Origin: Diplonema papillatum
Lineage: Eukaryota; Euglenozoa; Diplonemea; Diplonemida; Diplonemidae
Direction: 5' to 3'
DNA length: 64,000 nucleotides
NCBI GenBank assembly: GCA_030068145.1
Contig: JAPJBO010000657.1
Coordinates: 62,001 to 126,000 of the forward strand
Shown here: in pieces, positions 2,780 through 63,780 of the stretch
Numbering within the stretch: position 1 is the first letter of the stretch
Layout of the letters: every line of letters starts with the position of its first letter
The notes under the pieces: model-generated
What the model was told of the DNA's origin: nothing
What the model saw: the letters and a program-made list of their open reading frames with translations, nothing else
Database searches by the model: none
Made by a program: the position numbers and the translations under genes

Positions 2780-3016
2780 ACAAGCACCCGCTTTGTAGGA
2801 AACACTTGAGGAGGCTGCCAGTTGCGAAATATTAAAGGAGGTAAATGTTGCTGCAGCCCACACGAATTACACAAATAACGCTAGCACCCCAGGTAAATCT
2901 GGGTTTAGTGGCGGGCGAGTAAGCGCTTCAACGAAAAAAGACCCACTTTGTAGTTGTATTGTTTATCCCCCTCTAGCCTCCTTCGAAGTTAGCACAGGGC
3001 AGCCCCTCGAGTGTTT
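2780..3016 (+). repeat. R1 repeat, near full length, interrupted
   Basis: It carries all R1 blocks, from CACCCGCTTTGTAGGAAACA to GGCAGCCCCTCGAGTGTTT. About 24 extra bases (TTACACAAATAACGCTAGCA..) sit between CACACGAA and CAGGTAAATCTGG; they resemble the ACAAATAACGCT unit seen at 23423 and 28072. Confidence 0.8.
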
Positions 3017-3239
3017 CTCATGCCGAAAACAGCAACCGGGGGGGGGGGGGGGGGGAGAAGAAAAAAAAAAAAAAAAAAAAAACAACAACAACAACAGCGA
3101 GTGCAAGCAACTCAAAAAAAGGATTTAGCAAGGTTTATTCGACCGAAGGCGATCCCTGCAACCGCTTGCACCCGCCTTCGATACCCACCCCTCCTCTGAC
3201 GGTCAACAGGGAACTGAAATATTCCGGCTTCTCGAAGCT

Positions 3240-3440
3240 CGAAACAGTCTAAACCCCCGTAGAGTCACCCCGGAGACTCTAAAATCCCGGATTCTCAAGC
3301 GAACTACAACTCTACAAAAAAACCCCGGAGTTTCAAGCGAAATTTCACTCCAAAAACACTACACTACGGAATCCCGGATTCTCAAGCGAACTTTAACTCT
3401 TAAAAACCAAAACCCGGAGTTTTAAAGCAAAAACCGAGAC
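3240..3440 (+). repeat. cluster of three R2 units
   Basis: CCCCGGAGACTCTAAAATCC with TCAAGCGAACTACAACTCTA, then CCGGAGTTTCAAGCGAAATT, then CCCGGATTCTCAAGCGAACT and CCGGAGTTTTAAAGCAAA. Each variant ends near an A-rich run. Confidence 0.75.
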
Positions 3441-3445
3441 CCCTC

Positions 3446-4149
3446 CCGCAACGAAGATTTCCCTTCACCTCTCTGGATGAGGGCTAGTCGTACACTTGCT
3501 ATCCTTGAGAGGGGATGGAGGGTTAACTTTAGCGACCCCTGGGGAAACCGTCGACAGAAGAAATCGAAGAAAAAGAGGAAAAAGGAGACGGAGAGACGTG
3601 CTCCGGGGTGGACAACGTGGCTTCACACACGCGGCAAAGCGCTGGACACGAGGTACCTGAACGCGACGGATCGAGACGAGCGGAACAGGTGAAATCATGA
3701 CACATCGCGTGCGAAGGGACAGCTGCGACGCCGGCGAAAACGCAGACTATCGCCGCAGATTCTTTGCATTCCAAAACCAGAGTATCTCTGTGTGTTATCG
3801 ATGGCACAGGTAGTCACCGTAGTGACCTCACGCAGACCGTCATAGCTAAATAATCTGCATTCTACCCTCAAGCTATCTCTCAGTCTGTCAGCAGGGATGA
3901 ACCTGCACGGGCTCGTGTTCAGCTCGTGTAGCGCCAGGACCCGAGTTGAATCAATGATGTTTGGGTTTCGAGAAGTTGGCAGCCACATGACGCCCGAAGG
4001 CCCGCAACCCCTGCGGCACCGCCGAACGCCTGGTGCTGTTGGCATCCGCTCGGAAACCGTCGACAAGAAAAAGAAGGAAAAAAGAAAGCAAGCGAACGAA
4101 GTTAGTAACCAGCTAGGCTGGAAACAGGAAGAGTCTCAATTGCTGTTCT
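3446..4149. other. gene-free stretch; R20 fragment
   Basis: GCGACGCCGGCGAAAACGCA..ATTCTTTGCATTCC at 3726-3773 resembles 11385-11425 (both plus) and, inverted, 58975-59020 (family R20). The rest is unassigned. Confidence 0.5.
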
Positions 4150-4292
4150 TTTTCTCTTTTTTTTTTTAGCCACATGCAATGTGTGAGGAAACTGAACTGC
4201 TCAAGTAGGACCTTCTGATCATAATCATTTGCCAAATTTGCCACCTGAAACCACGTCCAGGATTTGGGCTCAGGGTAGTGCGGTCAACGAAA
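4150..4292 (+). repeat. R5 repeat preceded by pyrimidine tract and AG
   Basis: TTTCTCTTTTTTTTTTAG leads into CCACATGCAATGTGTGAGGA, then GACCTTCTGATCATAATCAT and CCACGTCCAGGATTTGGGCT, ending at GGTCAACGAAAA. Copies lie at 37128 and 43745, with parts at 38288 and 39566. The tract plus AG looks like a 3' splice site. Confidence 0.8.
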
Positions 4293-4378
4293 ATGTGTAT
4301 GCACCTTATGTCACTCGTTCGTTTGCAAAGATTGCTCCGTTCTTCTCCCTGACTTGTTCCCGGATTAGGATGACACAT

Positions 4379-4405
4379 ACTACTACTACTACTACTACTA
4401 CTACT
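4379..4405 (+). repeat. (TAC)9 microsatellite
   Basis: TACTACTACTACTACTACTA; it immediately precedes an R1 copy. Confidence 0.95.
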
Positions 4406-4422
4406 TGGTGTATGCACTGTGT

Positions 4423-4541
4423 TAGCACCTGCTTTGTAGGAAACACTTGAGGAGACTGCCAGTTGCGAAATCTCAAAGGGCATGCCGATGACTCCCCGCT
4501 GTCGCAACAATATTCCAATCTCAAAGGAGGTAACGTGCTGT
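4423..4541 (+). repeat. R1 repeat, partial, rearranged
   Basis: TAGCACCTGCTTTGTAGGAA to AATCTCAAAGGAGGTAACGT. A 45-bp duplication or insertion separates two versions of AATCTCAAAGG. Confidence 0.7.
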
Positions 4542-4631
4542 CTACGCCGTCTACGAATCATAGCCGGTAGCAGGTCGAATCTTAAGAAAAGTCTTCTCTC
4601 TTACGAGTTCTTCTCCCTCTTGAGAGTCTTC

Positions 4632-9157: not shown

Positions 9158-9290
9158 AAAGGGTCACCCGGAGACTTTAAAACCCCGGAGTTTCAAGCGA
9201 ACTTTCACTCTAAAAAGAACCTTTCGACGACGGTCACCCCGAGACCTTGAACCCCCGAATCCTCAAGCGAACTGCAACTCTAAAAAAAAA
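9158..9290 (+). repeat. two R2 units head to tail
   Basis: GGTCACCCGGAGACTTTAAA..ACTTTCACTCTAAAAA, then GGTCACCCCGAGACCTTGAA..AACTGCAACTCTAAAAAA. Confidence 0.85.
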
Positions 9291-12175: not shown

Positions 12176-12237
12176 GCACCTGCTTTGTAGGAAATGCTTG
12201 AGGAGGCTGCCAGCTGCACAAGATCAACGGAGATTTT
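12176..12237 (+). repeat. R1 repeat, 5' fragment
   Basis: GCACCTGCTTTGTAGGAAAT through GATCAACGGAG; the remainder is absent and fold-back module A begins just downstream. Confidence 0.7.
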
Positions 12238-12246
12238 TTGTGCGGT

Positions 12247-12362
12247 GTAATGCCCTTATATCCCACTCAAAACAAATTTGTGCCCTTATATCCCACTTCA
12301 AACAAATTTTGTGCCCTTATATCCCAAACTGGGATATAAGGGCACAAATTTGTTTTGACAAA
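12247..12362. repeat. fold-back module A, left copy
   Basis: Three copies of TGCCCTTATATCCCA, spaced by CAAACAAATTTTG-like linkers (about 33 bp per unit), are followed by the inverted form TGGGATATAAGGGCA. The arms CAAATTTGTGCCCTTATATC and their complement can form a long hairpin. The same module occurs at 17045-17217, on the far side of the hAT remnant. Confidence 0.8.
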
Positions 12363-12390
12363 TTTGAATCGAGGAAAATGCTGGAAAACT

Positions 12391-12471
12391 TGCCGAGGAG
12401 GGGCTTGAACCCCCGACCACTCACCTTGAAACCCAAGGGTGGTTGGCTCGACCATCCGGATACCTACGGCG
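12391..12471 (-). pseudogene. degenerate tRNA-like sequence
   Basis: On the minus strand the 3' part has a good T-arm and B-box (GGGGGTTCAAGCCCCTC) followed by CTCGGCA, which pairs with the 5' GCCG at 4-5 of 7 acceptor positions. The D region contains GGATGGTCGAG. The anticodon region does not fold normally: it forms CCTTG-GGTTT-CAAGG inside an outer CCAC/GTGG pairing, so no standard 7-nt loop or anticodon can be assigned. It could be a tRNA pseudogene, a tRNA-derived element head or an unusual tRNA. It abuts the fold-back at 12247-12362. Confidence 0.3.
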
Positions 12472-12752
12472 AAAAAAAAAAACTTTTCGTCCAGCCGGAC
12501 GCTGGACTCCTGTTGCTGTTGCTATTGCCACTGCATGCGTCCACGCTGACATTGGCAGTGACATGGAGACATCACGTGTCGCGAGTTGACGCCCACGCCT
12601 GGCACGGCGAGCCAAAGCCGAAATCGAACCCGAACCCAGAAGTTCTGAGGAGTGATGGTGGCAGAACCGAACCCGAAACCGAACCTCAACCCGAAACCGA
12701 ACCAGTGCCCGATAGCCTCGGATAGGAAACCAAACTCGGAACTGAACCCAGA

Positions 12753-13253
12753 TTACAAGACAGATGGCCAGAACCGCGGAGGACGGTGGGCTAACAACCC
12801 AAGGTGGCGACACAGTCGGACACTGTTGCCGACAGACGGAATCTGCAGCTCACGCAAGAATGGCTGATTCCTTCCTAAAGTCATCAACTGTCGTTGTGCC
12901 CACGCCTGCACCGCAACTGGTTGCACACACACCGGTTGCACGACGGTGGACACAGCTTCCTTCACTGCAGGCTTCACTGCGTAAGTGAAATCAGCTGTGA
13001 CTGTGGCTGACTCGCAGCCGCGTGACAGCGGCGCCTTCCCTCCACTGAGCCAGTAGTCCCGGTCCTGCTGCTGTTCCTTGCTGCAGCTGCTGCTCCATTG
13101 TCCAGAGGTAACTGGACCAGGCTCCCCACTCCAGGCACTCGGAGTCGGACAGCTATAGCGATACCCTGTGTTCTGGTCCCCGAATCTGGAGGTGAATCCT
13201 GCAGACGTGCGGTGGGTGTGCAGTTTACGGCTGCCGCGACACTGTCCGGTCAC
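12753..13253 (-). CDS. unknown ORF, possible exon within non-repetitive DNA
   Basis: This 166-codon minus-strand frame lies in one of the few stretches with no visible repeat copies. Its middle (roughly residues 20-110) has a balanced composition with spaced Cys, Trp and Tyr, for example NTGYRYSCPTPSAWSGEPGP. On the minus strand CGTCTGCAG near its start could be a splice acceptor. No domain is recognised. ORFs of this length arise by chance in a window this size, so it is only a candidate. It sits between the left fold-back (12.25 kb) and the left 13.73 kb array of the nested structure described for 12.2-17.2 kb. Confidence 0.2.
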   Translation of the reverse strand: MTGQCRGSRKLHTHRTSAGFTSRFGDQNTGYRYSCPTPSAWSGEPGPVTSGQWSSSCSKEQQQDRDYWLSGGKAPLSRGCESATVTADFTYAVKPAVKEAVSTVVQPVCVQPVAVQAWAQRQLMTLGRNQPFLRELQIPSVGNSVRLCRHLGLLAHRPPRFWPSVL

Positions 13254-13288
13254 TCAGTGACTGACACTGTGACAGTCACAGTGTGACA
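13249..13288. repeat. short palindrome, CACTGTGAC-type
   Basis: CTGACACTGTGAC and GTCACAGTGTGACAC form a nearly perfect hairpin, preceded by GTCACTCAGTGAC, itself a palindrome. No TIR partner or flanking duplication was found. Confidence 0.5.
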
Positions 13289-13724
13289 CAGCCTCAACAA
13301 GGACAGTGGAGAATGACCGTGGTCACTGGTATGTCAGGCCAAGAAACGGATCATGAGTCTGATGAGATCAGTTGTCTCGCCTGACTCTCGGCTGTAGCAT
13401 CTGGCCAGCTACTACAGTTCTGTCACCGCGATTAGCCCCGAACGTCAGCGTGGCACGCCGTGACACGCCGCACGGTCAGACGGTGCAGCCAGGCACCTGG
13501 CTCTGATGCGGTTCTCTTGAGTACTTGCTTGAGCCTCCCAAGTTGAGGCACCCGATCGGGGATCGAGTGTGGCCGCGGTGGCCAGCTTGAAGTTGTGAAA
13601 CGGTGCAACCAGTCGCTCTGAGGCACCCAGAACGTCTTGAGACGTCTCGGGTGGGGCACTGAAGCCAGCTTTATGCCTACGGACAAGGAAACACCAAAAA
13701 CGAATGGAACGGGCTGGACTGGGT

Positions 13725-13965
13725 CAAAAATTTTGGTCAAATTTTAGGGGTCCAAATTTTTGGGTCGAAAATTTTGGTCGAGATTTTTGGTCCAAGTCTT
13801 TGGTCGAAATTCTTGGGGTCCAATTTTTGGGGTCGAAATTTTGGGTCCAAAAATTTTGGTCGAAATTTTTGGTCGAAATTTTGGGTCCAAATTTTTGGTC
13901 AAAATTTTTGGGGTCCAATTTTTGGGGTCGAAATTTTGGGTCCAAAATTTTTGGGAAACTTACAA
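13725..13965 (+). repeat. minisatellite module B, left copy
   Basis: This is a degenerate tandem array of short T-rich units such as TTTTTGGTCGAAATTTTGGG and TCCAAATTTTTGGGGTC. Frames across it read as FWSKFLGSNFWGRNFG-like repeats, which are by-products of the array and not a gene. It is in the same orientation as the array at 16692-16975. Confidence 0.85.
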
Positions 13966-14181
13966 ATATATGCGCGATAAACTGCCGAAAAAACTGTGCG
14001 CATACGAAACGTATGCGCGAAAAACTGTTTTTTTTACAAATATATGCGCGAAAAAACTAAAATTGACAAATATATGCGCGGTGCATATGTTTGTCAGTTT
14101 TAGTTTTTTCGCGCATATATTTGAAAAAAAAACAGTTTTTCGCGCATATATTTGTAAAAAACAGTTTTTTCGCGCATATGC
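13966..14181. repeat. fold-back module C, left copy
   Basis: Units of ACAAATATATGCGCGAAAAA with a run of T alternate. The centre is a palindrome: ACAAATATATGCGCG is followed by its complement further on (CGCGCATATATTTG). Two or three units per arm can pair into a long hairpin. It abuts module B on its left. Confidence 0.85.
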
Positions 14182-14421
14182 CACAATTCTTGTTGGGAGA
14201 CCCCTTCAAAAAAAATCCCCCCAAAGTGCCTATTTCGAGTGTTTAGCCTCATTAAAGCCATCAAAAGTGAATTCAGACGGGTTTTTGACGCCAAACACAG
14301 CATCGCGAGAATATGGGGTCCACAATGAATGTACTTCAACATACTATACAAAATGACATACACTCACACATTTGTAAAAATACCATGAAGTTCGTAGCCT
14401 ATTTTAGGGCCCACAAAGTGA

Positions 14422-15522
14422 CTATTTCGGGTGTATGATGCCAAAAACAACGAGAGGTTCCACAACGGATGTACCATGCAGGGTCAAAACCTTGTGTCTT
14501 TTTGGAAATGGCCAAAAAAGAAATTCCGGAAAAAAATTGGGTTTTTTGAATTTTAAAATTTTGGAACAAAAACTGCGGTAATTTTTGATGAAGTTGAGCA
14601 AATTTTTTTTTTTTTCCATTTTTGGCCAGGGGTTTATACGGGGCTTCGAAAAAATCCTGAGTTCCGGTCTGGGCGTGTTTTTTTTTTTGCTGCAACTGCA
14701 TGCTGTATGCCACCTTTGCCTCGTTTTGATCAGCTTCATCAAACTGAACAGTCTTTCAACCGATGCCGTTCCGAGAGGTGTCGAAAGGGCCGCGCTCATG
14801 AGGAGGCTTGTGCACGGGTACAGAGAGGTCAGTGTGACATCCATGAGAAACAGCTTTAGGGCTGCGGTATAGCTGTAGCGAGTCAGTGTGTTTGCAACAG
14901 TTTTGAGCTCCTCGAGAACAGATCTGTGCTCGTCGTCGGCTCGGGGAAAAACCTCATTCCTGAAATCTGCAATGAAGCGGGCATTGAGAAAGGGAGGAGA
15001 ACGTGCGGATCTGCCTTCCTGGGTTGGTCGGACCTTTTCCTCGCCGTAATGGGCGACAAGAATATCAACAAGTCTGACCGCCTCAGGTTGGTTTCCAGCC
15101 ACAGGCCCACTCAGGTCAAAAAGGCTGAATCCCTCCATGACACCCAGGTTGCTCTTCAAACCCGAACGAAGGTCAGAGATTAGCCCGTTAACGTAGGGCG
15201 TGGCCACTTCGGCATGATAGGCCTGGACTGTCTGGGGTGTCACGCGGGTAAAGCCTGCTAAACCTTCAGTTGCGCGGTTTATCACGACATCGCAAAGGAA
15301 GTAGGTCGGGTGATTTTCGTGCAGAAAGTCGTGCAGGGAGTTGGCCTTCTCAACTTCTGAGTCCGACTCCTTTGTCCACCGCTCGTACTCCGTGTTTGTC
15401 CCCTCTTTCGGGACGTTGGTCTGCCGTCCTGTTTGCCGAGATGCGAGCCCGAACATGCTTGCGATGTCCCGGGGAATCCCCTCCTTCTTTGGATCCACAC
15501 GCTGTAGCTTCTTTGGTGGCAT
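14422..15522 (-). pseudogene. hAT-family transposase, C-terminal remnant
   Basis: This 366-codon frame encodes the C-terminal half of a hAT superfamily transposase, the enzyme that cuts and pastes hAT DNA elements. Residues about 229-270 match the hAT dimerisation (hATC) region: LYPCTSLLMSAALSTPLGTA is followed by SVERLFSLMKLIKTRQR, the pattern typical of that domain. Residues 1-228 look like the helical stretch that precedes hATC in ZNF862-like proteins. The N-terminal BED finger and the catalytic DDE core are absent. Similarity stops at residue 270 (about position 14713), and the remaining codons run into an A-tract and the element's non-coding end. The ATG at 15522 is followed by a basic leader (MPPKKLQRVDPKKEG), so an internal deletion may have joined the old start to the C-terminus. 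Family membership is seen in the sequence; loss of activity is inferred from the missing core. Confidence 0.75.
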
Positions 15523-15710
15523 ACTGGCCCTCCCGTTACCGCTCCCACCCGGTAAGCCCCAACCCGAACGCTATGTGGTTTTTTTTTTTTTTTTTCCCCA
15601 GACCGGAAGAATTTGAGTTCCGGTCTCTCAGACCGCTAAACTAAGCCCGTATAATCGCCTGATTTTTGGGGGCCACCAGCCCCGTGGCAGTGTTTCAAAA
15701 AGACACAAGG
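14475..15710 (-). mobile_element. decayed hAT element carrying the transposase remnant
   Basis: The left end at about 14475 reads CATGCAGGGTCAAAACCTTG and continues GTGTCTTTTT. Near 15694-15708 the opposite-strand version, AAAAAGACACAAGGT, is present but breaks off before the expected TTTGACCCTGCATG, so the right terminus is eroded. About 140 bp of the left end (14475-14615) matches, inverted, the right half of the short element at 47078-47287. That defines the non-coding end of this family independently of the protein call. CAGGG termini are typical of hAT elements. No 8-bp target duplication can be demonstrated because the right end is damaged. Confidence 0.6.
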
Positions 15711-15971
15711 TACGAGCGCGGAAATCCGCCACCCGCCATTCGGCTAGAGTGCAAGAACACAATTGCGAAGCGTACTACAAACGGATAGTGTTACAAAGGC
15801 GAACGAATCATGCGAGAACCTATGGAGGGGCCCCTCGACAGCTTTCAGAACACGGCATAGTAAGTCAAGAGTCGGATAAGCGTGTGCACATTCTACTCCC
15901 GTTTGATCTGCATTTTCCACCTTGCCCCCCTTTCTTTGATCTGCTGTGTGTATTTGCAAAACAGTTCCGGC

Positions 15972-16453
15972 ACGGCGGGTTTGCGGGTTTGCGGGGTTTG
16001 CGGGTTAGGGTTTGCGGGTTTGGGTGCGCGGGTTGGCGGGTTTGCGGGTTAGAGTACGCGGGTTTGCGGGGTTTGCGGGTTAGGGTACGCGGGTTGGCGG
16101 GTTTGCGGGTTAGGGTACGCGGGTTTGCGGGTCTCGGTATGCGGGTATTAGGGTTGGCGGGTTCGGGTATGCGGGTTTGCGGGGTTTGCGGGTTAGGGTA
16201 TGCGGGTTTGCGGGTTTGCGGGGTTTGCGGGTTAGGGTGCGCGGTTTGCGGGTTTGAGGGTTCGGGTTTGCGGGGTTTGCGGGTTAGGGTACGCGGGTTG
16301 GCGGGTTTGCGGGTTAGGGTACGCGGGTTTGCGGGTCTCGGTATGCGGGTATTAGGGTTGGCGGGTTCGGGTATGCGGGTTTGCGGGGTTTGCGGGTTAG
16401 GGTATGCGAAGGTTTGCGGGTTAGGGTATGCGGGTTTGCGGGTCTGGGTATGC
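15972..16453 (+). repeat. telomere-like GGGTTAGGGT / TTTGCGGG tract with 204-bp higher-order repeat
   Basis: The tract is a mix of TTTGCGGG, GGGTTAGGGT, TACGCGGG and GGTTGGCGGG units. A block starting GGGGTTTGCGGGTTAGGGTA at 16068 recurs at 16272, a higher-order period of 204 bp that includes the distinctive CTCGGTATGCGGGTATTAGG. The long ORFs across it on both strands are repeat artefacts. It resembles degenerate telomere repeat (TTAGGG/TTTAGGG) mixed with other G-rich units. Confidence 0.8.
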
Positions 16454-16516
16454 CAGCCTCCAGTGATGAGAGGCGCTCTGCTTTTGTTGCAAAGAAAACG
16501 TATTTGTAGTGCGCGA

Positions 16517-16686
16517 AAAAACTTTTTTTTTTTTTTTACAAATATATGCGCGAAAAAACTGTTTTTTACAAATATATGCGCGAGAAAACTGTTTTTTTTT
16601 ACAAATATATGCGCGAAAAAACTAAAATTTACAAATATATGCACCGCGCATATATTTGTAAATTTTAGTTTTTCGCGCATATCCTG
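16517..16686. repeat. fold-back module C, right copy
   Basis: Four forward units of ACAAATATATGCGCGAAAAA are followed by the inverted GCGCATATATTTGTAAATTT. They are the same units as at 13966-14181. Module B follows on the right, so the order C-B here mirrors B-C on the other side of the hAT remnant. Confidence 0.85.
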
Positions 16687-16691
16687 GTATA

Positions 16692-16975
16692 TTACCCAAA
16701 ATTTTTGGTCGAATTTTTGGGTCCAAATTTTTGGTCGAAATTTTTGGGGTCCAATTTTTGGGGTCGAAATTTTGGGTCCAAAATTTTTGGTCGAAATCTT
16801 TGGTCGAAATTTTGGGTCCAAATTTTTGGTCCAATTTTTTGGCATCGAAATTTTTGGTCGAGATTTTTGGTCGAATTTTTTGGGTCCAGATTTTTGGTCA
16901 AAATCTAGTTGGGCAAAATGTTGGGGCAAAATTTGGTCGAAAATTTTGCCCTCGAATTTTTGGACGTTGTGGCCG
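16692..16975 (+). repeat. minisatellite module B, right copy
   Basis: The units are the same as at 13725-13965 (TTTTTGGTCGAAATTTTTGG, GTCCAATTTTTGGGGTCG) and it reads in the same direction. It degrades into GGGCAAAATGTTGGGGCAAA at its right edge. The protein-like repeats in its frames are artefacts of the array. Confidence 0.85.
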
Positions 16976-17044
16976 AGTCAAAGCACGCACGCCACCGGCA
17001 CCACAGGTGTCCGGTTCGGTTCCCTCAAAAGACTTTTTACACGA

Positions 17045-17217
17045 CCAAACAAATTTTGTGCCCTTATATCCCACTTCAAACAAATTTTGTGCCCTTATAT
17101 CCCAGATTGGGATATAAGGGCACAAAATTTGTTTGAAGTGGGATATAAGGGCACAAAATTTGTTTGAAGTGGGATATAAGGGCACAAATTTGTTTGGGGT
17201 GGGATATAAGGGAAATT
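17045..17217. repeat. fold-back module A, right copy
   Basis: Two forward units (AAACAAATTTTGTGCCCTTA, then TATCCCA) are followed by three inverted units (TGGGATATAAGGGCACAAAA and on), then a decayed fourth. The tandem period is about 33 bp. With 12247-12362 it brackets a 4.7-kb segment holding modules B and C, the hAT remnant and the telomere-like tract. Confidence 0.8.
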
Positions 17218-17226
17218 TACCTTTTT

Positions 17227-17292
17227 TGTGCTGTAGCCCACACGAAACGCAGGTGAATCTGGGTTCAGTGGCGGGCGTAAGCGTTCAACAAA
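17227..17292 (+). repeat. R1 repeat, middle fragment
   Basis: TGCTGTAGCCCACACGAAAC to GGCGGGCGTAAGCGTTCAAC, directly after fold-back module A. The 5' fragment at 12176-12237 ends roughly where this one begins, so the 12.24-17.22 kb structure may sit inside one R1 copy. Confidence 0.7.
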
Positions 17293-17344
17293 TTCGAGTA
17301 TTTCTGGTGCTCAGGATGTGCACCGCGGGCACCAAAAAGAAATT

Positions 17345-17518
17345 CATAGAAATATGGAATGGATCGATTTGTGACGGATCTTTCCATTGCCGCTCTCGGA
17401 GGCCAGAAAGTCGACCTATGCCGGTTAGAAAATCGACCCAAGGTTCAGTGGTTATGCCCACGTCGAACATGTCACAGAATATCCAGAATTAATCTGCAGG
17501 CGCCCCGTCGGAATAGGG
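17345..17518 (+). repeat. R18 repeat
   Basis: AGAAATATGGAATGGATCGA, TTGCCGCTCTCGGAGGCCAG and GCGCCCCGTCGGAATAGGGT. Matches 30053-30222. Confidence 0.8.
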
Positions 17519-17532
17519 TTAAGGAACCTTTA

Positions 17533-19789: not shown

Positions 19790-19903
19790 TAACCCAAACA
19801 ACTTTCGGCGGTAGAGGAAACCTGCCTAAAGAGACCAACTGCCATCGGGTGGGCTATTCTGACACTTGCTGTCGTCGGGGGAAAAAAAAAAAAAAAAAAA
19901 AAC
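19790..19903 (+). repeat. R3 unit with A-runs on both sides
   Basis: CTAACCCAAACAACTTTCGG, CATCGGGTGGGCTATTCTGA and CACTTGCTGTCGTCGGGGG, then an A-run at about 19882-19901. A second A-run precedes it. Confidence 0.85.
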
Positions 19904-22733: not shown

Positions 22734-22840
22734 GTTAACCCAAACAACTTCCGCCGGTAGAGAAATCTTGCCTAAAAGAATCAACTGCCTTCGTGTAGGC
22801 TAGTCTGACACTAGTTGTCGTCGGGAAAAAAAAAAAAAAA
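22734..22840 (+). repeat. R3 unit with A-runs on both sides
   Basis: TTAACCCAAACAACTTCCGC, CCTTCGTGTAGGCTAGTCTG and CACTAGTTGTCGTCGGG, then an A-run. Confidence 0.85.
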
Positions 22841-23546: not shown

Positions 23547-23760
23547 ATAAGCACCTGCTTTGTAGGAAATTCTTGAGGAGACTGCCAGTTGCGATAGATC
23601 AAAGGAGGTAAATGTGCTGTAGCCCACACGAAACACAGGTAAATCTGGGTTTAGTGGCGGGCGTAAAGCGTTCAACAAAAAGACCCACTTTGTAGTTGTA
23701 TTGTTTTCTCCCCCTCTAGCCTCCTTCGAAATGAGCACAAGGCAGCCCCTCGAGTATTTT
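23547..23760 (+). repeat. R1 repeat, full length, reference copy
   Basis: All R1 blocks are present in order: GCACCTGCTTTGTAGG, GATCAAAGGAGGTAAATG, TGCTGTAGCCCACACGAAAC, AATCTGGGTTTAGTGGCGGG, CACTTTGTAGTTGTATTG and GGCAGCCCCTCGAGTATTTT. There is no ORF of note. It differs from 55351-55564 at few sites. Confidence 0.9.
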
Positions 23761-26916: not shown

Positions 26917-27075
26917 ACATAGGAAAAAAGAGCGCGCGCTAAAGTAAGTCGAATAGTCGGCAAGGCAACAACAGCAAAGATATACACACAAACATACTAT
27001 ACCTTAAAGGAACCTTTATGAATACGGTCACCCGGAGACTATAAAACCCCGGATCCCTAAGCGAACTTGCACTCT
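26917..27075 (+). repeat. R2b unit, full
   Basis: AAAGTAAGTCGAATAGTCGG to GCGAACTTGCACTCTAGTA. Its head GCACATAGGAAAAAAGAGCG recurs near 63655. Confidence 0.75.
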
Positions 27076-28411: not shown

Positions 28412-28415
<4 letters not shown>

Positions 28416-42900: not shown

Positions 42901-42934
42901 CTGCCCCCTGTTAGCTAAGCCGGTTAATCCCTTT

Positions 42935-43065
42935 GTCTCCCTGGAACAGCATCGAATTGCTTGCCGCTCTGTATCACGGTGCATCGAGGTTCACCACGGG
43001 CCATCAGGTCCATCCCTATCCCTTAGAGCTGCCAACAATTGTGTGGAGCTGTATTCTTCGGTCTT
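42935..43065. mobile_element. R14 MITE, interior fragment
   Basis: GCATCGAATTGCTTGCCGCT through GAGCTGTATTCTTCGGTCTT matches the R14 interior in scrambled or deleted form. No terminal repeat remains. Confidence 0.45.
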
Positions 43066-43233
43066 CGAGCTCGCGCCCGCCCGCGATGATCAAGACGAGC
43101 TGGGTAGGCGAAAGCAAGACGCATCAGGGCCGTGTCTTGTATGCAGCGTCGGCTGCAAGGTGCAGACCAACAAAGCAGAACTCCTCTCTCGGTACCAAGG
43201 TGCTCGGAAAGACCAGGTGGGGGTGGACGGGCT

Positions 43234-45094: not shown

Positions 45095-45264
45095 CAAAAA
45101 TGACATTGGCCGAAACCACCAATGACCAACAACCAACGATCCTCTTACCTCGTGTAACCACACTCTTACGACACTCAGAGCACAAAGGATATCTTTCCAT
45201 ACCGACGAAGGTCACCCGGAGACTTTAAAACCCCGGAGTTTCAAGCGAACTTTCACTCTAAAAT
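45095..45264 (+). repeat. R2 long-head unit, full
   Basis: AAATGACATTGGCCGAAACC, CCTCGTGTAACCACACTCTT, AAAGGATATCTTTCCATACC, GACGAAGGTCACCCGGAGAC and GAACTTTCACTCTAAAA in order. With 56274-56444 this defines a ~170-bp unit. Confidence 0.85.
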
Positions 45265-47077: not shown

Positions 47078-47287
47078 CATGCAGGGTCAAAACCTTGTGT
47101 CTTTTTAAAACGCTCCCGCGGGGCCGATGGAGCCCTAAAATTTTTTTTGGAAAAAAAAAATTGCTCAACTTCCTCAAAAATTACTGCAGAGTTTGTTCCA
47201 AACTTTTAAAATTCAAAAAACCCAATTTTTTTCCGGAATTTTTTTTTTTGCCGTTTTCAAAAAGACACAAGGTTTTGACCCTGCATG
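47078..47287. mobile_element. MITE, internally deleted derivative of the 14.5 kb hAT element
   Basis: The 29-bp terminal inverted repeats are perfect. The left arm (47078-47106) begins CATGCAGGGTCAAAACC and the right arm (47259-47287) ends in its reverse complement. ATAC flanks both sides directly (47074-47077 and 47288-47291). The right half, read on the minus strand, matches 14475-14615 over about 140 bp, including the block AATTCCGGAAAAAAATTGGG. It carries no coding sequence. hAT insertions normally make 8-bp duplications; here only 4 bp agree, so the precise target duplication is uncertain. Confidence 0.75.
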
Positions 47288-47330
47288 ATACGTATTCATC
47301 AGGCTGATCATCAGCATGCCAAATGACTCT

Positions 47331-48140: not shown

Positions 48141-49118
48141 GGTAAGCAGGTGCGAGATCAGGCAAAGCTTGCGCGCTACCTGGGGGGACGGGGGGGTTAT
48201 CCCCCTACGGACGGAGGACACATACGTATGTCGAAAAACACCGAGCCCAGCTGGAGCTCGGACACCGCGTCTCCGGAGTAAAGACACGTCAAAAAGATCC
48301 ACGTTTGCTGCTGTGAACCGATGCGTAACGAGACCTCTTCAAGGCGCCCCAGGTTCCTCGTTTTGCTTGTCGTAAAATTGACTCAGTGTTTTTCCAGAAG
48401 GTTTTCTGCACCCGTCCGTATGGGGTTAAGTAGTATTGCCACAGGCCCGTTCGGAGATCTTGAGGGCACGCTTTGATGCATTGTGTTAACCACAGATCGC
48501 ACTACGTACGCAACGTCCAACAAGGACTTTCGTTACCGTAAATACCACAATTTCTCCGTTAATACGACGTTCTCCCGTCATTAGTTTTGTTGTATCCGCG
48601 CGTCCGAGAGTCCCAGGGCTTACCCAAAAGGGTTGCTTTCATATCCAAACCCTATGCCAATTCTCATTCCTGTGCGCAGCAGTTTTATTCCGGAAATGCT
48701 CTCTTCAGCACAACTGTACTAAAACAGTCTCCTGCTCCCCTGACTTCATGCGAATTGTAAAGATGCCCTTTGAGCTTCACCTCAAAGAAGGCAGTGAGAG
48801 CGCGCCGTGCGAGAGACAAACATAACAGGGGAATTCCACATCGCGAAGTGCGCACAAACAAAAGACTTTCACTGGAACGTGTCCGTGTTTACTTCGGCGG
48901 ACTTGCCGGCATGGCAAACCTAGAAGATATGCCCAGCCGACCCTTTCGGATGCAGGCGCAACTGCGTCTGTCCCTTGCTTTCGGGTAGGAATGGGGATGC
49001 GACGTGAGAGAACTCAGTATCGACCTGCCGACGACAGGCCCTCAGCCGGCCACAGCTTTGTCGCTACTGTGGCCGAGAACCCCCTCCCCATGCCGGAGGA
49101 TGCCCGTCTCCGTGACCG
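48141..49118. other. gene-free stretch, nothing recognised
   Basis: It lies between the R11 MITE and an R6 copy. No shared repeat or domain was found. Confidence 0.45.
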
Positions 49119-49620: not shown

Positions 49621-50130
49621 CCCGGATTTCTTTATCGATTCAAGGTGCGGCTTTTTTGCGTTCTCCTCGCCAAATGCGTCATCCTGAATGAGCACCTTTC
49701 TGCCGCATCTCCCTCACCCCTCCTTTTGGGCGTGTTCTCTGCAAACGCCAGTCATCTCATGTGGAAACGAAACCAGCCTCGAAATAGATGAAAGGGAAAG
49801 TCCCCCCCCCCTGAACTTCTACGCACCAAACCCACCACCCACCCCAACCCGGGCTTCCTTTTCACCCCTGCAAACCCGTGAATAGGTGCTACGGGAGTAT
49901 CTGGCAACCGCTGCTTAACAGTGCTCACGTGGGCGGTGTCTTCGGACAGCACCTCGTGATGTTCGCATCACAAAACAAAGAAGACAGTGAAATGGTCGTG
50001 ACCTGGTCGGGTTTCGCTCGCGACCGTTTCCTGAACAATCCTTCACTAAATCCGCGGTTAAATAACCTGGCCTCAGTGGTGCAAGCACCACGCGCTCTTC
50101 AAACCCAAGAAACATTTTCCCCCCCTGAAC
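49621..50130. other. mixed repeat pieces upstream of the USP frame
   Basis: Holds an R9 scrap (49905-49945) and CCCCCCCTGAACTTCT at 49803, which recurs at 50119. AACCCAAGAAACATTT at 50102 recurs near 5278. A plus-strand frame here (NRCYGSIWQPLLNS) superficially resembles a USP cysteine box but overlaps the R9 scrap. Confidence 0.5.
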
Positions 50131-51090
50131 TTCTGCGATGCACAACAACACGATGCACACGAAGCTTTGGTAGCGATCCTCAACGCGACCAATACGACGC
50201 TGGGGCCGGACGAAACAGGGACCCCCTGCCCGGGCTACCAGCTCTTCCTAGCATGCCTGGAGAACCACTGGACCAACTCTGCACGGTGTAATGCATGTGG
50301 ACGCGCTTCTTCCGACAGTCAGGCGGTACAATGTCTGCAAATCCCTTGCGGGAGGAGACTGGAAGATTCTCTCTACGTCCACGAGTTCATAAATCCGGAG
50401 AGAGTGTGCGACTGCAAGGCTGTAGGCACGGTGGTTGAGAATATGGACCTCCGTCTGACAGCTGACTGTGTTCTGATGCAATTTGGCATCTACACGAGAA
50501 ACGGTGCCCGGCGCCAGAATGACGTGGAATTGCCCCCTTTCTTCGGACCACCGGACCATCTGCTACGCCTCGCAGCCGTCGTGGTGCACATGGGGGAGGA
50601 TACGGGTAGTGGACATTTCGTCACATACGTTGCACAAGATACGGGATGGATCCTCTTCGACGACCTGCGAGTTACTTTCGTCGACGACATTCCGTGGGGT
50701 GACGTTTACCTCGCGGCTTTTGTCCGGATCTCCCGGAGTGCCCACAACATGACAGTCCGTGCCCCGTCACCCTCCATGGTGCTTCCTACTCAAGATCGAC
50801 TGCCCGACTCGTCTGCACCCCCAAATTCAGCTGGTAATTTGATGGGCCGACAGTCGGAAGGATCACCTGACTTACTCTACCCCCTTGGTAGTTCACCATC
50901 CTGCCCGCCCTTACCGAACTCCCAATGTCTGACACCGCATGGTCAGTTGCTTGAGCAGTTGGCGGAGTCCCCAGTGCTGCGATGTCAACACTGCTCCATC
51001 GAGTCTACGAGGGATGGCCAGAAGTTTCAAGGTCTGAGGGGACTCCGGGCGCATGAGAGACGTTGCCGACTCGCGGATGTGAGGTTCTGA
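50131..51090 (+). CDS. N-terminally truncated USP (peptidase C19)-like protein with a C-terminal zinc finger
   Basis: USP enzymes cleave ubiquitin from proteins. The frame starts in recognisable homology at AQQHDAHEALVAIL (about 50136), the QQ-D box of USPs. Counting from the TTG at 50167: CNAC at 41-44 and CDC at 81-83 fit the zinc-ribbon cysteines of the fingers subdomain. GHFVTYV at 149-155 followed by GWILFDD at 160-166 is the His box with the catalytic His (H150) and downstream acidic residues. YLAAFVR at 181-187 ends the fold. A Ser/Pro-rich linker (about 195-260) leads to CQHC at 273-276 and HERRC at 296-300, a CCHC-type finger. The frame is open from 50062, but the sequence before about 50131 is shared with other repeats (near 5278 and 49802), and no catalytic-Cys box (GNTCYMN-like) is visible. 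It therefore appears 5'-truncated. A C2H2/CCHC finger next to a cysteine protease recalls proteins of NeSL/R2-type LINEs, but no reverse transcriptase is present here. Confidence 0.7.
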   Translation, partial: FCDAQQHDAHEALVAILNATNTTLGPDETGTPCPGYQLFLACLENHWTNSARCNACGRASSDSQAVQCLQIPCGRRLEDSLYVHEFINPERVCDCKAVGTVVENMDLRLTADCVLMQFGIYTRNGARRQNDVELPPFFGPPDHLLRLAAVVVHMGEDTGSGHFVTYVAQDTGWILFDDLRVTFVDDIPWGDVYLAAFVRISRSAHNMTVRAPSPSMVLPTQDRLPDSSAPPNSAGNLMGRQSEGSPDLLYPLGSSPSCPPLPNSQCLTPHGQLLEQLAESPVLRCQHCSIESTRDGQKFQGLRGLRAHERRCRLADVRF

Positions 51091-53544: not shown

Positions 53545-53782
53545 TTTTTTAATAGTACATCTGTACTGACGGGAACATTTCCGGAACAACGGTTGCACAT
53601 GAATGAGAAAACGAAGCCAACGAAAAAGTGCTAATACAGGAAAACCCCCCCCAAGAGAGGTTTATACCCTGTACACGCGAAGAACAAAAACTTTTGCCTT
53701 ATCATTTTCATCACGTTTGGTCAGTTGATGCTGATCGTCCGTTGCTTCGTTTAGCAGTGCAAGTCCCAACTCCGGAAATGCT
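53545..53782 (+). repeat. R8 repeat, full
   Basis: Same blocks as 28412-28643, also preceded by a T-run (ATTTATTTTTTTAATAG). It is followed by an R7 fragment and an R2 unit. Confidence 0.9.
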
Positions 53783-54009
53783 CCACCAAACTGCGCTTTT
53801 CTTCTCTCCTTCGAAAAGGTCGTCATTCAATGAGAGGCACAGTTCTGCCGAACTCTGAGAAGACGCTCGACGAAGGTCACCCGGAGACTATAAAATCCCG
53901 GATTCTCAAGCGAACTATATCTCCAAAAAATTCGACGAGTGCGTCAACGCAGCAGTATTTGATAAGGATGGCAAAAGAGCGAAGGCATATTTTTCTTTTT
54001 CTTTTTTGT

Positions 54010-54500
54010 GAGCTGGGAGAGCCTTCACGTGGCGACACTGTTGACCGCACCTTTTTTGATTCGCGGTCGCTGATCCCCCAACCGCCAGCATCATGTACTT
54101 GACGCGACGCCGAACAAGTGCTGACAGCACCGTCCGGCGAATAGAGGGCCACAAGAGTGGCAAATCGACCGGTCGGGGGGTGCTTAGCAGCCAATGGCCT
54201 GTGATGGCTGAGTGCACACCAAAGTACGGCTGCATCCTCGTGTTGTAGCCGTGTTGTGTACAAGGCTTCGTGGGGGCCTGGTCAACCACCTTTTCACGAA
54301 GGGTGAAAACCTTTCTCGACAGTGATTGGACAGTCGGGATGCCGGGGGCGGGTCTCCATGAAGAAGAGAAAAGTAAAGCAAGACCTGCCCCTGCGCCTGC
54401 TGTCTCCGGCTGCTTCGGCAGACGACACACTACTACTACTACTAGTGCAGTCTATTGCCACAGATTGTTGCTGCATAACAAGTTCAAACTACTACTACTG
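54010..54500 (+). repeat. inverted segmental duplication, copy 2 (with R12 end)
   Basis: GGCGACACTGTTGACCGCAC, CATCACAGGCCATTGG-complement, CGGCTGCATCCTCGTGTTGT, GGATGCCGGGGGCGGGTCTC, then the R12 end (CTA)n with GTTGCTGCATAACAAGTTCA and (CTA)n. Copy 1 lies about 30 kb away on the other strand. Confidence 0.85.
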
Positions 54501-55350: not shown

Positions 55351-55564
55351 ATAAGCACCTGCTTTGTAGGAAATGCTTGAGGAGACTGCCAGTTGCGATA
55401 GATCAAAGGAGGTAAATGTGCTGTAGCCCACACGAAACACAGGTGAATCTGGGTTTAGTGGCGGGTGTAAGCGTTCAACAAAAAAGATCCACTTTGTAGT
55501 TGTATTGTTTTCTCCCCCTCTAGCCTCCTTCGAAATGAGCACAAGGCAGTCCCTCGAGTATTTT
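55351..55564 (+). repeat. R1 repeat, full length
   Basis: ATAAGCACCTGCTTTGTAGG to GGCAGTCCCTCGAGTATTTT, nearly identical to 23547-23760. It is preceded by ATTTTTTTGT. Confidence 0.9.
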
Positions 55565-56273: not shown

Positions 56274-56441
56274 GTGGACAATGGCCGAAACCACCAATGA
56301 CCAACAACTAAGGTACCCACCGATCCTCTTACCTCGTGTAACCACCACTCTCACGACACTCAGAGCACAAAGGATATCTTCCCATAACGACGAAGGTCAC
56401 CCGGAGACTCTAACACCCCGGAGTTTCAAGCGAACTTTCAC

Positions 56442-56444
<3 letters not shown>
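56274..56444 (+). repeat. R2 long-head unit, full, with 33-bp A tail
   Basis: GTGGACAATGGCCGAAACCA to CAAGCGAACTTTCACTCT, then A33 (56445-56477). An R3 unit starts at the end of the A tail. Confidence 0.9.
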
Positions 56445-56479: not shown

Positions 56480-56600
56480 TCCGCCGGTAGAGTAAGCCTG
56501 CCTAAAGAAAACAACTGCCTTCGGGTGGGCTAGTCTGACACTTGCTGTCGTCGGGGAAAAAAAAAAAAAAAAAAAACGGGATCGACGGTAACACAAATAC
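56478..56600 (+). repeat. chain: R3 unit, A-run, R16 fragment
   Basis: CTTCCGCCGGTAGAGTAAGC to TTGCTGTCGTCGGGG, a run of about 20 A, then CGGGATCGACGGTAACACAA (R16). It directly follows the A33 of the long-head R2 unit, so three A-tailed units are linked. Confidence 0.85.
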
Positions 56601-56700
56601 ATTTCCGGAGTTGGGGCTTGCACTGGCATACGAAGTAACGGACGATCAACATCAAGTGACCAAAGGCGAGGAAAATGTGATCAGGCACGGTACAAAGCTC
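56595..56700 (-). repeat. R8 repeat, 3' part, minus orientation
   Basis: CATTTCCGGAGTTGGGGCTT, then AAGTAACGGACGATCAACAT is the complement of the R8 3' half. It is one of the few repeats here in the opposite orientation. Confidence 0.7.
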
Positions 56701-57045: not shown

Positions 57046-57369
57046 AGTGAACTACAGGAGTTTCCTGAGCCCAGCACAGAAAAACTAGTCTAGCACTTTT
57101 ATTGTTGGCTTCGCTGTTCGTGTGCAAACCGTTGCTCCGGAAAAGTTCCCGTCGGTACGAATGTATTAAAAACGAGATCCGTAGAGAGACGGTTCGAAGG
57201 GTGGAAGGTCAGAGAGGAGACCATGGACGTGGCGGCGAAGGTGCCGGAACAAGTCTCAGGGCTGGGAGTTCCACCTTCAAGTGGGGGAGGGTTGTCTTTG
57301 ACAGGGCGTTGCTCACCCGCCGCAGGTCCCCCCTCTGCCTGGGGCTCATCCTGGCTGGCCTCCCCGTCA

Positions 57370-58730: not shown

Positions 58731-58921
58731 TAGAACTGAGCCAGTCCATCCCTATCTCTTGAAAATGTATCGAAGTGCCTGCCGCTGTTTATCACAGTGA
58801 ATCACGGTCCACCACGGTCTATCAGGTCCATCCCTAGTCCCCAGAGCTGCATCGAATTGCCCGGTGCTGTATTCTTCGGTTTATCACGTCTATCAAGAGG
58901 AGATGGACCGGCTCAGTTCTA
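58731..58921. mobile_element. R14 MITE, copy with intact ends
   Basis: TAGAACTGAGCCAGTCCATC at the left pairs with GATGGACCGGCTCAGTTCTA at the right (19 of 20 bases). The ends fall on TA. The interior repeats CGGTCCACCACGGTCTATCA-like text. It is 191 bp and non-coding. Confidence 0.75.
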
Positions 58922-61180: not shown

Positions 61181-61397
61181 CCCTGGACGTTTGTTTCTTG
61201 GTACAGGGCGCAAGGAAACGCAGTGGATGGTGACGCGTTCGTATTTCCTCATGCTTGGTAAAAAAAGGCGGAGGACTTCCTGGAAGAAAATATTTTTGGC
61301 CATAGGCTGAGTGAAGGGCATACCTTCCCCAAACCCGAACGGCAGGAGGGAAAATACATGAAAACGGGGTTGCGGTCCTTTATGGGCCACCCGTCTA

Positions 61398-61602
61398 TTC
61401 ATGATAACCAACTACATAATATTGTAAAAGGTGTCACAGGATAAGCCGGCAGCCGGTGCTTAACGGTAAAGTGCATGCAGATCCGTGTGGTCCGCTTTAA
61501 AGTTCCAAATGCTTAGCGGCTTTATCACGTGGGCGGCCCTGAGATTACCCCCCCTCAGGTGACACCACTTTATTATCTTCAGCCATAAATCAACCTACTT
61601 TC
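61398..61602 (+). repeat. R9 repeat, full
   Basis: ATTCATGATAACCAACTACA to CAGGTGACACCACTTTATTA. Its left part is longer than at 35.9 kb by AATATTGT. Confidence 0.85.
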
Positions 61603-61737
61603 TCTTACTCTCGCGGTAGTACGGTTTCCTTCAGGAACCGATTGCCATTTGCTGTCGCGCCGGAACACTCGACAGTCTAAAAGGCTCAAAACTTACTGGC
61701 CTCGTACTGCCTCGTAGTAACACCGTTATTTTTAGTT

Positions 61738-61880
61738 CTAACAATCTTGCGGGTTGCCCTTTTATGTATTGTGCAGGCTAAAAAAGACGTAGGCAGCGTG
61801 TTATGGGGGTTGATCAGAACTCCTTACCTGAATATACACAGGGTAAATACAAGTGGGAAAACGATCACCACGCACAAACG
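61738..61880 (+). repeat. R15 repeat
   Basis: CTAACAATCTTGCGGGTTGC to GAAAACGATCACCACGCACA; R4 starts 20 bp later. Confidence 0.85.
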
Positions 61881-61900
61881 AAACGAAGCGCCTGTCTTTT

Positions 61901-62186
61901 TTTTACATAAGCGCCAGCTTGAAAGGAAATGCTCGACGATGCTGCCCGACAAAGAACAGAAGGGATCCCAAGTGCTGTATCTACCGAACCACGTGTTGAA
62001 CGGACGTGAGGTCATGCGACACGACAAATCACACAAACACAACAGGTCAAAAAATCCTGAGTGAGAAAACAACACACGGTGGTGTAAGCGAAGAACAAAT
62101 CAGATTGTGTTTGTATTGTATTTGCCCCTTACCTCTATATTTCCCCCCTTCCATTCGGAGTCGAAGCAGCTACGTCGAGTATTTTT
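61901..62186 (+). repeat. R4 repeat, full length
   Basis: TTTTACATAAGCGCCAGCTT to GAAGCAGCTACGTCGAGTAT. It follows directly on an R15 copy, the same order of families seen elsewhere in fragments. Confidence 0.9.
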
Positions 62187-62689
62187 GACACAGGAAGTTG
62201 AAGAACCAGTCTGAAGCTTGACCAGTGATTCCCTCGGTTTCGCCCCGGCCCGGAACCAGCCTTAACTGCACGGTTCCAGTGGCAGAAAAAGGCAGCCACT
62301 TAGCACCACCACCAGCGCTGCGTTAAGAAGGGGTTGGGCGACAAAAATAAACCGGGATTAGTGCCTTAAAACGCAGTAACATTCCCAACTTATCCCCCCC
62401 TGGGAGAAAAAAAAAGAAGAAAAAAAAAAAAAAGAAGAAGAAAAAAAAAAAAAAAAAGAAAACCGAAAAATACTATATTACCGGGTTCTAAGCCCGTTTT
62501 TTTTTCCACTCCGAAAGAGAGCAGCATGCTCGGACAGGCTGCGACGCAGGACCAACCATCGTGAATATCATCAAGAAAGCAACAACCAAAGCGGAAAATC
62601 CGTCAAGGCAGAAGCCACAAAACAGTCGAACACCAGCATAGGAACTCACCGATACTCTCGTGCTTCTTTGCTCCTGGGTTCACTCCCCC

Positions 62690-62815
62690 CTTACAGAGTC
62701 TTACACTCCCTTCTCACCCGTTCTCCTTTTCCTTTTCTCATCTTCTTCGAAGAAGACTTGGCGCCAGCATCAAACATGCACGAGAGGCAGCGTTCTGCTT
62801 GAACGTGAAACTAAA
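62690..62815 (+). repeat. R7 unit, long
   Basis: TTACAGAGTCTTACACTCCC, TCTTCGAAGAAGACTTGGCG, CCAGCATCAAACATGCACGA and GCAGCGTTCTGCTTGAACGT. Confidence 0.75.
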
Positions 62816-63611
62816 GTGGAGCACCCCCGTGGCGGTTGGTGGACGAGCCACAACTCAAACCCTTTCTCCAAGCGAACTCACTCTAAAACGGAGGATCCGT
62901 CCCCTCAGGGGGTCTACCCATTTCCGCACAGAGAAGGACGCGCTTTCGGCTTTAGGACCCACCTTCCACCAGGGGAGATATTTCGCTCTCAAAACGCACC
63001 GTCTCCCCATTGCGAAAGATATTCCAAGCCTTCAACGATGAGCAGTTTATTTTATTTTTTTGGTGCCAGAATACTTTGTCCAATTGTTCCGTACGGGAAC
63101 TATAGCTGTGCCTTGGGAAGCAGAAATGTTTCTGACTTATTTTCCGGCAGTGCTTTACGCAGCTCTCGGAAATTGCGCTCGGAGAAGAAAAAAAAAGGTC
63201 CGTATGTCCCACGGGCAACCACACAAAACTACGGCAACTGACTGGGCGAATATCGCCGGAAACACAAAAAAAAAAACGGGATTGAGACTGCATCCTTTGT
63301 GAATGTGATCTTGCTGGCGCTCACAGGAACCACTGCCTTGACTAGCCAACGTGAAAGGGTGCGCGTACGAGTCCACATCCCCGCCACGACTTTGCTCCCA
63401 GCCTCAACCAAACCGAAGATTCTATACTGCCAGACCATTGACTTCGAAAGGGCCTGTGGTAAGAGGGCGGAGGGTCCAGGGAAGATTTGCTTTGCCGGCC
63501 TTATCCACCGTTGTCTTTCTCTCGCTTATCGTCAGTGACGGGCAGCAAGGCGTTGCTTGGGACCGCGCTAACGGATCGGAAGTTTACGATAACGTACAGA
63601 CCAGCGCATTG
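62816..63611. other. gene-free stretch with R2/R16 scraps
   Basis: CCAAGCGAACTCACTCTAAA (62870) is an R2 tail; AATATCGCCGGAAACACAAA (63249) is R16-like. The rest is unassigned. Confidence 0.45.
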
Positions 63612-63780
63612 CCAAACGTCACCGGAGACTTTGAAAACCCCAGAGTTTTCAAGCGAACACATAGGAAATGGGCGCGCTCTAAACTATGTCGAATAGTCGG
63701 CAAAAGGCAATGCAAGACACACGCACAAGCACACGAGCTGCCACTACCGCAGATACGGTACGCACTACTATTATAGCCCC
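63612..63780 (+). repeat. R2 core followed by R2b head
   Basis: CACCGGAGACTTTGAAAACC, then AACACATAGGAAATGGGCGC, GTCGAATAGTCGGCAAAAGG and GCTGCCACTACCGCAGATAC. Core precedes head, the reverse of the usual order, implying two adjacent units. Confidence 0.65.

Follow-up and report, generated by a model that had tools for sequence, protein, structure and literature searches.

Many short mobile-element remnants in Diplonema papillatum appear to follow the direction of the surrounding one-way gene clusters

The window analysed here is a 64,000-nucleotide stretch of contig JAPJBO010000657.1 (hereafter C657), a gene-poor contig of the marine flagellate Diplonema papillatum. It contains an exon for a ubiquitin carboxyl-terminal hydrolase (UCH) at 50062–51087 (+; PF00443, E 3.4e-11), on the strand along which the repeats read in sense. 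Judged from two genes on C657, this one and PSP1 (C657:27498-29195, +), the window lies within a plus-strand gene cluster. Long one-way gene clusters are reported for the genome of Diplonema (Paradiplonema) papillatum (PMC10161547, in part), whose published annotation counts about 32,000 genes. A search for known structured RNA recovered nothing from Rfam at gathering level across the window and nothing at E 0.1 in 30000–30300.

Repeats were collected using iterative nhmmer profiles from 22 seed families on both strands of C657 and of C1:1-120000, and overlapping families were fused into elements (A/I/K/M, B/E/O, and H/U), giving 16 groups. The family letters (A–V) have no one-to-one correspondence to the R numbers of a sequence-only reading made earlier. 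Eleven minus-strand E matches (10 on C657 and 1 on C1) were excluded as palindromic self-matches over a plus match, and the orientation of H was assigned from its partner U. The near-uniform orientation claimed in the sequence-only reading was borne out: 118 of the 126 elements in the window lay on the plus strand and 8 on the minus strand (binomial 3e-26, a strength that is overstated because the test treats elements as independent and some form short tandem groups). When the window was compared with itself by BLAST on both strands, 257 direct pairs and 15 inverted ones separated by more than 3 kb were found. Twelve strict groups together showed a plus:minus ratio of 108:0, namely, A/I/K/M (32:0), B/E/O (19:0), D (15:0), F (11:0), G (6:0), N and P (5:0 each), J and Q (4:0 each), C and T (3:0 each), and R (1:0). 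All eight minus elements came from four mixed groups, H/U (5:3), S (0:3), L (3:1), and V (2:1). The MITE-like elements had been said to share the plus orientation; in the window this is true of B/E/O, whereas H/U, S, and V depart from it.

The minus elements comprise two U fragments (48661–48721 and 57086–57168), the H portion of an H/U element (56599–56668, in the orientation of its U), three S elements (38835–38992, 42918–43102, and 58739–58906, the last with symmetric 13-base terminal inverted repeats), an L element (33246–33391), and one arm of V (47255–47289), whose arms come as inverted pairs. The exceptions noted earlier near 56.6–56.8 kb and 58.98 kb are real, the former being the H/U matches at 56599–56668 and 57086–57168 and the latter the S element at 58739–58906, and so is the 24/54 kb duplication, an inverted pair at 23868–24275 and 54014–54499.

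In its build, family A resembles truncated A-tailed retroposons. Its plus-strand copies include three consecutive ones with an A-tract at the 3' end (3263–3400), two at 9161–9281, one containing the exact 29-base pattern used for the genome (20450–20500), the A portion of a K-I-A composite element (27025–27075), one at 45208–45259, and one followed by a 33-base A-run (56393–56444). A-runs trail many A/I/K/M copies, whose shared 3' ends carry an A-tract: of 111 3' ends compared pairwise, 69% fell no more than 4 nt from a single point. Their 5' ends vary from −220 to +33, and 36% cluster this tightly. Target-primed retroposons likewise combine a shared 3' end bearing an A-tract with scattered 5' ends. 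Copies of family D on the plus strand are likewise followed by A-runs at 19823–19878 and 22769–22824, and another, at 56499–56554, bears an exact genome pattern. Some modules recur in a fixed order (K-I-A and B-O), and certain elements form short tandem groups. Such order and grouping would suit the amplification of one large ancestral array that carried many families in a single direction, as the sequence-only reading had proposed, but pairwise family A matches end at the element borders, except where neighbours overlap. Across the genome, two of the families by themselves reach 3780 and 5238 exact matches, and the same orientation rule is found on many contigs; we regard an ancestral array as very improbable.

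The E and U-H elements differ in build and resemble, as far as sequence features can tell, Helentron-type HINEs. E elements lie at 30892–31187 (+), with an asymmetric inverted repeat and a hairpin end adjoining a T-tract, and at 61904–62192 (+), with a T-tract in front. U-H elements lie at 28412–28644 (+), behind a T-run, and at 53551–53783 (+), both HINE-like and with their direction taken from U. The asymmetric subterminal inverted repeats are 19 nt in E and 13 nt in U-H, and they beat the best of 100 shuffles in all six copies. The inner arm lies 23–27 nt from one end and the outer arm 1–9 nt from the other, and the hairpins fall within the terminal 35 bases. HINE/DINE-1 Helentron elements (PMC4067079, in part) similarly combine asymmetric inverted repeats, a palindrome near one end, and T-rich insertion sites, although the outer part past the inner arm is 22–26 nt in E/U-H compared with 38–60 in the mite HINE/DINE-1 families of that source. 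The B-O elements, for example at 23547–23759 (+), behind a T-rich stretch, and at 55351–55563 (+), behind a T-run, gave best inverted-repeat scores of 7.8–8.4, inside the shuffle range (three copies).

Copies of E, B-O, and U-H are mostly preceded by T-tracts; by eye, the flank of E/U-H was T-rich in most but not all of the copies inspected, and the tract falls on the gene-sense strand when the element is in its usual direction. If elements prefer A- or T-rich targets, and if the two strands of a transcribed cluster are unequal in these tracts, direction could simply track the targets. The excess of A-runs over T-runs noted earlier is real (66 versus 28 for runs of at least 8 in the window) and would suit such targeting, as would the preceding T-tracts. 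However, T-runs on the sense strand are the minority, yet the T-tract elements B/E occur only in sense in the window, and a 66:28 skew alone is insufficient for ratios of 19:0 and 32:0. Target asymmetry is an unlikely explanation.

Four families (A, B, D, and H) were searched genome-wide and compared with 363 gene positions, the reference being the nearest kinase, helicase, or kinesin match within 100 kb. Gene pairs 5–200 kb apart were on the same strand in 66 cases and on opposite strands in 1. Strand totals over the assembly were near 50:50 for every searched family (e.g., 1888/1892); relative to the nearest gene, however, same:opposite ratios were 31:2 for A, 23:3 for B, and 10:1 for D, and 1:18 for exact-match copies of H. 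Families A, B, D, and H therefore keep a preferred gene-relative orientation on many contigs despite balanced totals, A, B, and D with one sign and H, as written, with the opposite sign. Assembly-wide strand randomness, which the sequence-only reading had named as contrary evidence, is found in the totals but not locally, and the link that it had suggested with transcription or replication direction finds support at the level of domains, where repeat strand tracks gene strand on many contigs. The bias was strongest on C657. Spliced-leader matches agreed with genes (15:3) and gave 7:6 with the nearest A copy; B gave 19:10 when set against the closest A copy no more than 10 kb away, the flanks of six kinases 5:3, and A was of mixed orientation on contigs C2, C8, C9, and C17 taken whole. 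Intact LINE copies were unbiased (4:9 relative to the closest gene up to 200 kb away; reverse transcriptase pairs 15:25); these copies come from a separate compartment. None of the 22 families was present in the 20 kb LINE island on C1118, so this island is uninformative on their orientation.

We propose, with a probability of roughly 0.45, that the repeats are remnants of non-autonomous mobile elements inside one-way, probably polycistronic, gene clusters and that their direction was chosen at insertion. Insertion of both the retroposon type and the HINE type would start at nicked or single-stranded DNA. Transcription would run one way across hundreds of kilobases and, by analogy with kinetoplastids, replication may do likewise, so that one strand could be exposed more often, as the displaced strand of an R-loop or as the lagging-strand template; the more exposed strand would then set the direction of insertion. 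A fixed direction is seen both in families with an A-tract and in families of the opposite tail polarity, with a T-tract, as read on the sense strand; a single RNA-processing signal does not account for this. Our suggestion that the direction of transcription or replication dictates the insertion strand for two chemically different kinds of element, each with its own sign, is tentative, at somewhat short of even odds. Unbiased LINEs (4:9) count against strand choice at insertion, since an insertion rule should affect LINEs where clusters are transcribed, and so do the spliced-leader, B-versus-A, and kinase-flank ratios and the four mixed contigs. An idea that only retroposons are biased and DNA-type elements are not, drawn from H alone on C657 (4:5), was overturned by the genome-wide 1:18 for H. 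Element strand composition was also considered as the cause, and no clean rule emerged.

Alternatively, both orientations may land and one be lost afterwards. This course, akin to the selection inside one long transcribed unit that the sequence-only reading had suggested, is a live alternative, though a somewhat less probable one. The harmful orientation might upset the processing of long precursor RNA through a cryptic trans-splice acceptor or an early poly(A) site, or it might form dsRNA with abundant sense copies and trigger RNAi, a frequency-dependent process by which either sign could be fixed in each family. The unbiased intact LINEs fit such selection, as one-sidedness need not belong to insertion itself. 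RNAi genes are reported in P. papillatum (PMC10161547, in part), and Leishmania SIDERs divide by transcript compartment (PMC2689281, in part). Strong pyrimidine-tract-AG sites number 128 on the gene-sense strand and 419 on the opposite strand (C657 from 25 kb on). However, a per-family acceptor score does not fit: E and O, which are always in sense, have the higher value in their retained orientation, and the score does not part strict from mixed families. Avoidance of poly-T/AG acceptors was rejected as the sole cause: it fits the strand totals but not the per-family scores. The bias beside the six kinases is no stronger than on gene-poor C657. Among antisense copies, those of D, F, and mostly G (two of three) seem little diverged, as selection would have it, but B and O do not lean young, and taken together the ten copies from B, D, F, G, and O, with a mean percentile of 0.52, do not look less diverged in this small sample. 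H/U stood at 6:6 on C657 against 1:18 for exact-match H copies in the genome, the opposite of the pattern expected from slow purging. We lean, with limited confidence, towards a strand chosen at insertion rather than the later loss of one orientation.

Why mobile elements favour one direction is ordinarily hard to interpret. Here, many short remnants of mobile elements keep a set direction with respect to the surrounding one-way clusters, such that repeat direction appears to record reading direction. If this is true, dispersed repeats preserve a durable trace of strand. The limits of clusters, and perhaps the direction of replication, could then be inferred from them, which would make annotation-free maps of one-way clusters, borders included, possible for diplonemid genomes. 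With clusters of hundreds of kilobases, several families, and thousands of copies, insertion choice and purging could be tested against each other through a comparison of recent with older copies. The literature searched and the accessible main text of PMC10161547 yielded no account of how repeats are oriented in diplonemids.

The one-way clusters reported for Diplonema (Paradiplonema) papillatum (PMC10161547, in part) concern the same genome, in which gene direction is set by domain. In bacterial IS200/IS605 and Tn7 (PMC5371812, in part), orientation follows replication, and element orientation is likewise a record of a chromosome-wide direction; these elements are bacterial and use other chemistry, so the analogy is one of working, not of membership. 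The Leishmania SIDERs (PMC2689281, in part) are similar in being short, truncated, non-autonomous retroposons with a sense excess in the one-way polycistronic clusters of a euglenozoan. That excess is about 4-fold in directional gene clusters, and the intervals separating poly(A) from trans-splice sites are enriched about 3-fold in antisense copies. Whereas the sense bias of SIDERs is weaker, the bias in the present case is near-total on C657 and involves several element types, with one family reversed. The sense bias of SIDERs in Leishmania is known already; what is added here is that several types of element are oriented at once.

Seeds for 22 repeat families (A to V), most of them taken from the most repeated stretches of the window's own contig, JAPJBO010000657.1 (C657), were extended as iterative profiles and run on both strands over the whole of C657 (130,798 bases) and over positions 1-120000 of another contig, C1. 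Elements were counted after overlapping families had been merged (A/I/K/M, B/E/O and H/U; 16 groups in all). The sequence-only reading that nearly all dispersed repeats in the window, which spans C657:62001-126000, read plus was borne out: 118 elements were plus and 8 were minus. Together, twelve groups stood at 108:0 (plus:minus), and the minus elements belonged to H/U (3), S (3), L (1) and V (1). Corresponding ratios were 56:8 in C657:1-62000, 6:0 in C657:126001-130798 and 17:2 in C1:1-120000; eleven minus E hits, palindromic self-matches, were left out, and H elements were scored by the orientation of their partner U. A two-strand self-comparison of the window yielded 257 direct versus 15 inverted repeat pairs more than 3 kb apart. 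The window holds 66 A-runs versus 28 T-runs of at least 8 nt; 13 of the A-runs are located 3' of a copy of A, C, D, M or Q, another 3 fall inside a hAT-like block and 50 elsewhere. The PSP1 gene at C657:27498-29195 is plus, as is a ubiquitin carboxyl-terminal hydrolase exon at 50062-51087 of the window. The first third of the domain is missing from the match of this exon, and its C-terminus resembles a zinc finger by eye.

The hAT-like block (12230-17420 of the window) carries a minus ORF at 14422-15570 that matches PF05699 below the cut-off (E 0.001); inverted repeats flank it, its base skew is reversed, and an GCGGGTTT-type array occupies 15975-16443. Three large minus ORFs at C657:20227-25472, with weak tyrosine-recombinase and reverse-transcriptase/RNase-H matches below Pfam cut-offs, look like one DIRS-like mobile element, and C657:1-6042, the contig start, is made up of roughly 6 kb of a tandemly repeated 22-base unit with three frames open.

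The P. papillatum (Diplonema, or Paradiplonema, papillatum) genome paper describes arrays of 5 to 120 genes, each reading one way, on nearly 90% of contigs longer than 50 kb. It also reports RNAi genes and, by extrapolation, a spliced leader on practically every mRNA, and puts repeats at 52% of the assembly; in the part of its main text available to us, no discussion of repeat direction was found (PMC10161547). Across the 271 Mb and 2910 contigs searched here, the strand totals of exact patterns are balanced: A 1888/1892 (longer A pattern 716/765), B 2660/2578, H 397/382 and D 31/30. Positions were taken for at most the first 100 matches per pattern. Among the matches listed, A was 15:1 on C1, 16:3 on C3, 0:8 on C4, 12:0 on C7, 0:5 on C16 and 0:5 on C20, and mixed on C2 (4:8), C8 (6:5), C9 (2:2) and C17 (5:3). 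C3:89-99 kb is a minus domain, in which 9 of 9 family matches outside V are minus and both skews negative; C3:144-154 kb is mainly minus (6 of 7 outside V, the exception being one F copy), and the listed A copies of C3 are plus from 159.7 kb up to 721 kb, with one exception.

Gene direction was taken from kinase, helicase and kinesin matches (363 positions out of 394 rows), and gene pairs spaced 5-200 kb apart agreed 66:1 (same:opposite). Repeat direction tracks that of the gene cluster, each family with its own sign: relative to the nearest gene within 100 kb, A scored 31:2 (33 of 157 listed copies being informative), B 23:3 (26 of 100), D 10:1 (11 of 49) and H 1:18 (19 of 100), although p-values for this agreement overstate its strength because copies that share a contig lack independence. 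Spliced-leader matches, some of which may be leader-RNA genes, scored 15:3 (18 of 100 listed). Within 200 kb, the listed copies gave A 54:9, B 33:7, D 16:2, H 2:31 and leader 25:5.

Several results run against a simple rule. Of the elements in the 4-kb flanks of six kinases, five lay with the gene and three (G, D, B-O) against it. Among those listed, B versus the closest A copy no more than 10 kb away was 19:10, and leader matches versus the nearest A within 100 kb were 7:6. At two loci outside the window, A was opposed to B (L003) and D ran against both A and B (L005). H/U stood at 6:6 on C657, and the listed exact B copies of C1 at 19:5. A further dispersed repeat (30065-30225 and 17337-17522 of the window; 41 scored matches; no Rfam match in 30000-30300 at E 0.1) was opposite to A in L002, L003, L005 and L007, the four loci that contain A among seven outside the window, and ran with A in the window.

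The leader pattern had 661 matches assembly-wide with at most one mismatch, more than the 110 published leader genes. One such locus shows the longer leader known for Diplonema. In C1:52856-59998, a full leader exon on the plus strand precedes by about 2 kb a LINE with oxygenase, endonuclease and reverse-transcriptase domains, an arrangement such as the back-copying of a trans-spliced LINE RNA would leave.

Family A ends 3' in CACTCT or AACTCT plus an A-run, with 69% of 111 pairwise ends at most 4 nt from one point; its matches extend 5' by up to 220 nt more, and K-I-A is its longer form. This common 3' end with variable 5' reach resembles the build of 5'-truncated retroposons. Common 3' ends also occur in C (100% of 10 pairs) and G (79% of 39); D ends vary (35%), and many D copies nonetheless run into A-runs. 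In E and U-H, the arms of an inverted repeat are placed unequally, one of them close to an end of the element and its partner 23-27 nt in from the opposite end; a short hairpin lies beyond the inner arm, as a rule with a T-tract next to it. B-O is similar by eye, its inverted-repeat score falling within the shuffle range, and the terminal repeats of S are symmetric. E and U-H appear akin to HINEs, non-autonomous Helentrons, as described in PMC4067079, but have a shorter outer part; by the HINE convention (hairpin end = 3') they are usually antisense to genes, and the A-tract of family A is in gene sense.

We infer that direction is probably set at insertion. Fixation is seen in families whose tails have opposite polarity and already in the exact-match copies of H; ten antisense copies of B, D, F, G and O look no younger on the whole; the bias is strongest on gene-poor C657; and the trans-splice-site idea, which fits the strand totals, fails family by family. 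Purging of one orientation after insertion, which these points weigh against, we hold to be the lesser possibility, at about one third. The main objection to direction set at insertion is that intact LINEs are unbiased: among the best 150 of 4330 candidates, the 13 informative copies scored 4:9 (same:opposite) against the nearest gene within 200 kb, and reverse-transcriptase pairs 15:25. These LINEs may represent another compartment, since none of the best 150 had a kinase, helicase or kinesin match within 25 kb and two stretches (20 kb) of LINE-rich contig C1118 lacked all 22 small families; perhaps the small families and LINEs form two repeat compartments. C1118 holds five of the best 150 reverse-transcriptase matches, in both directions.

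MITE-like insertions have been proposed as a source of diplonemid introns (PMC12621601); a family-specific, near-fixed direction over different element types was not found in the diplonemid literature searched. In Leishmania, SIDER retroposons show an approximately four-fold sense excess in one-way clusters (PMC2689281). To that known sense excess, the present data add a family-specific, near-fixed direction of several element types in a diplonemid.
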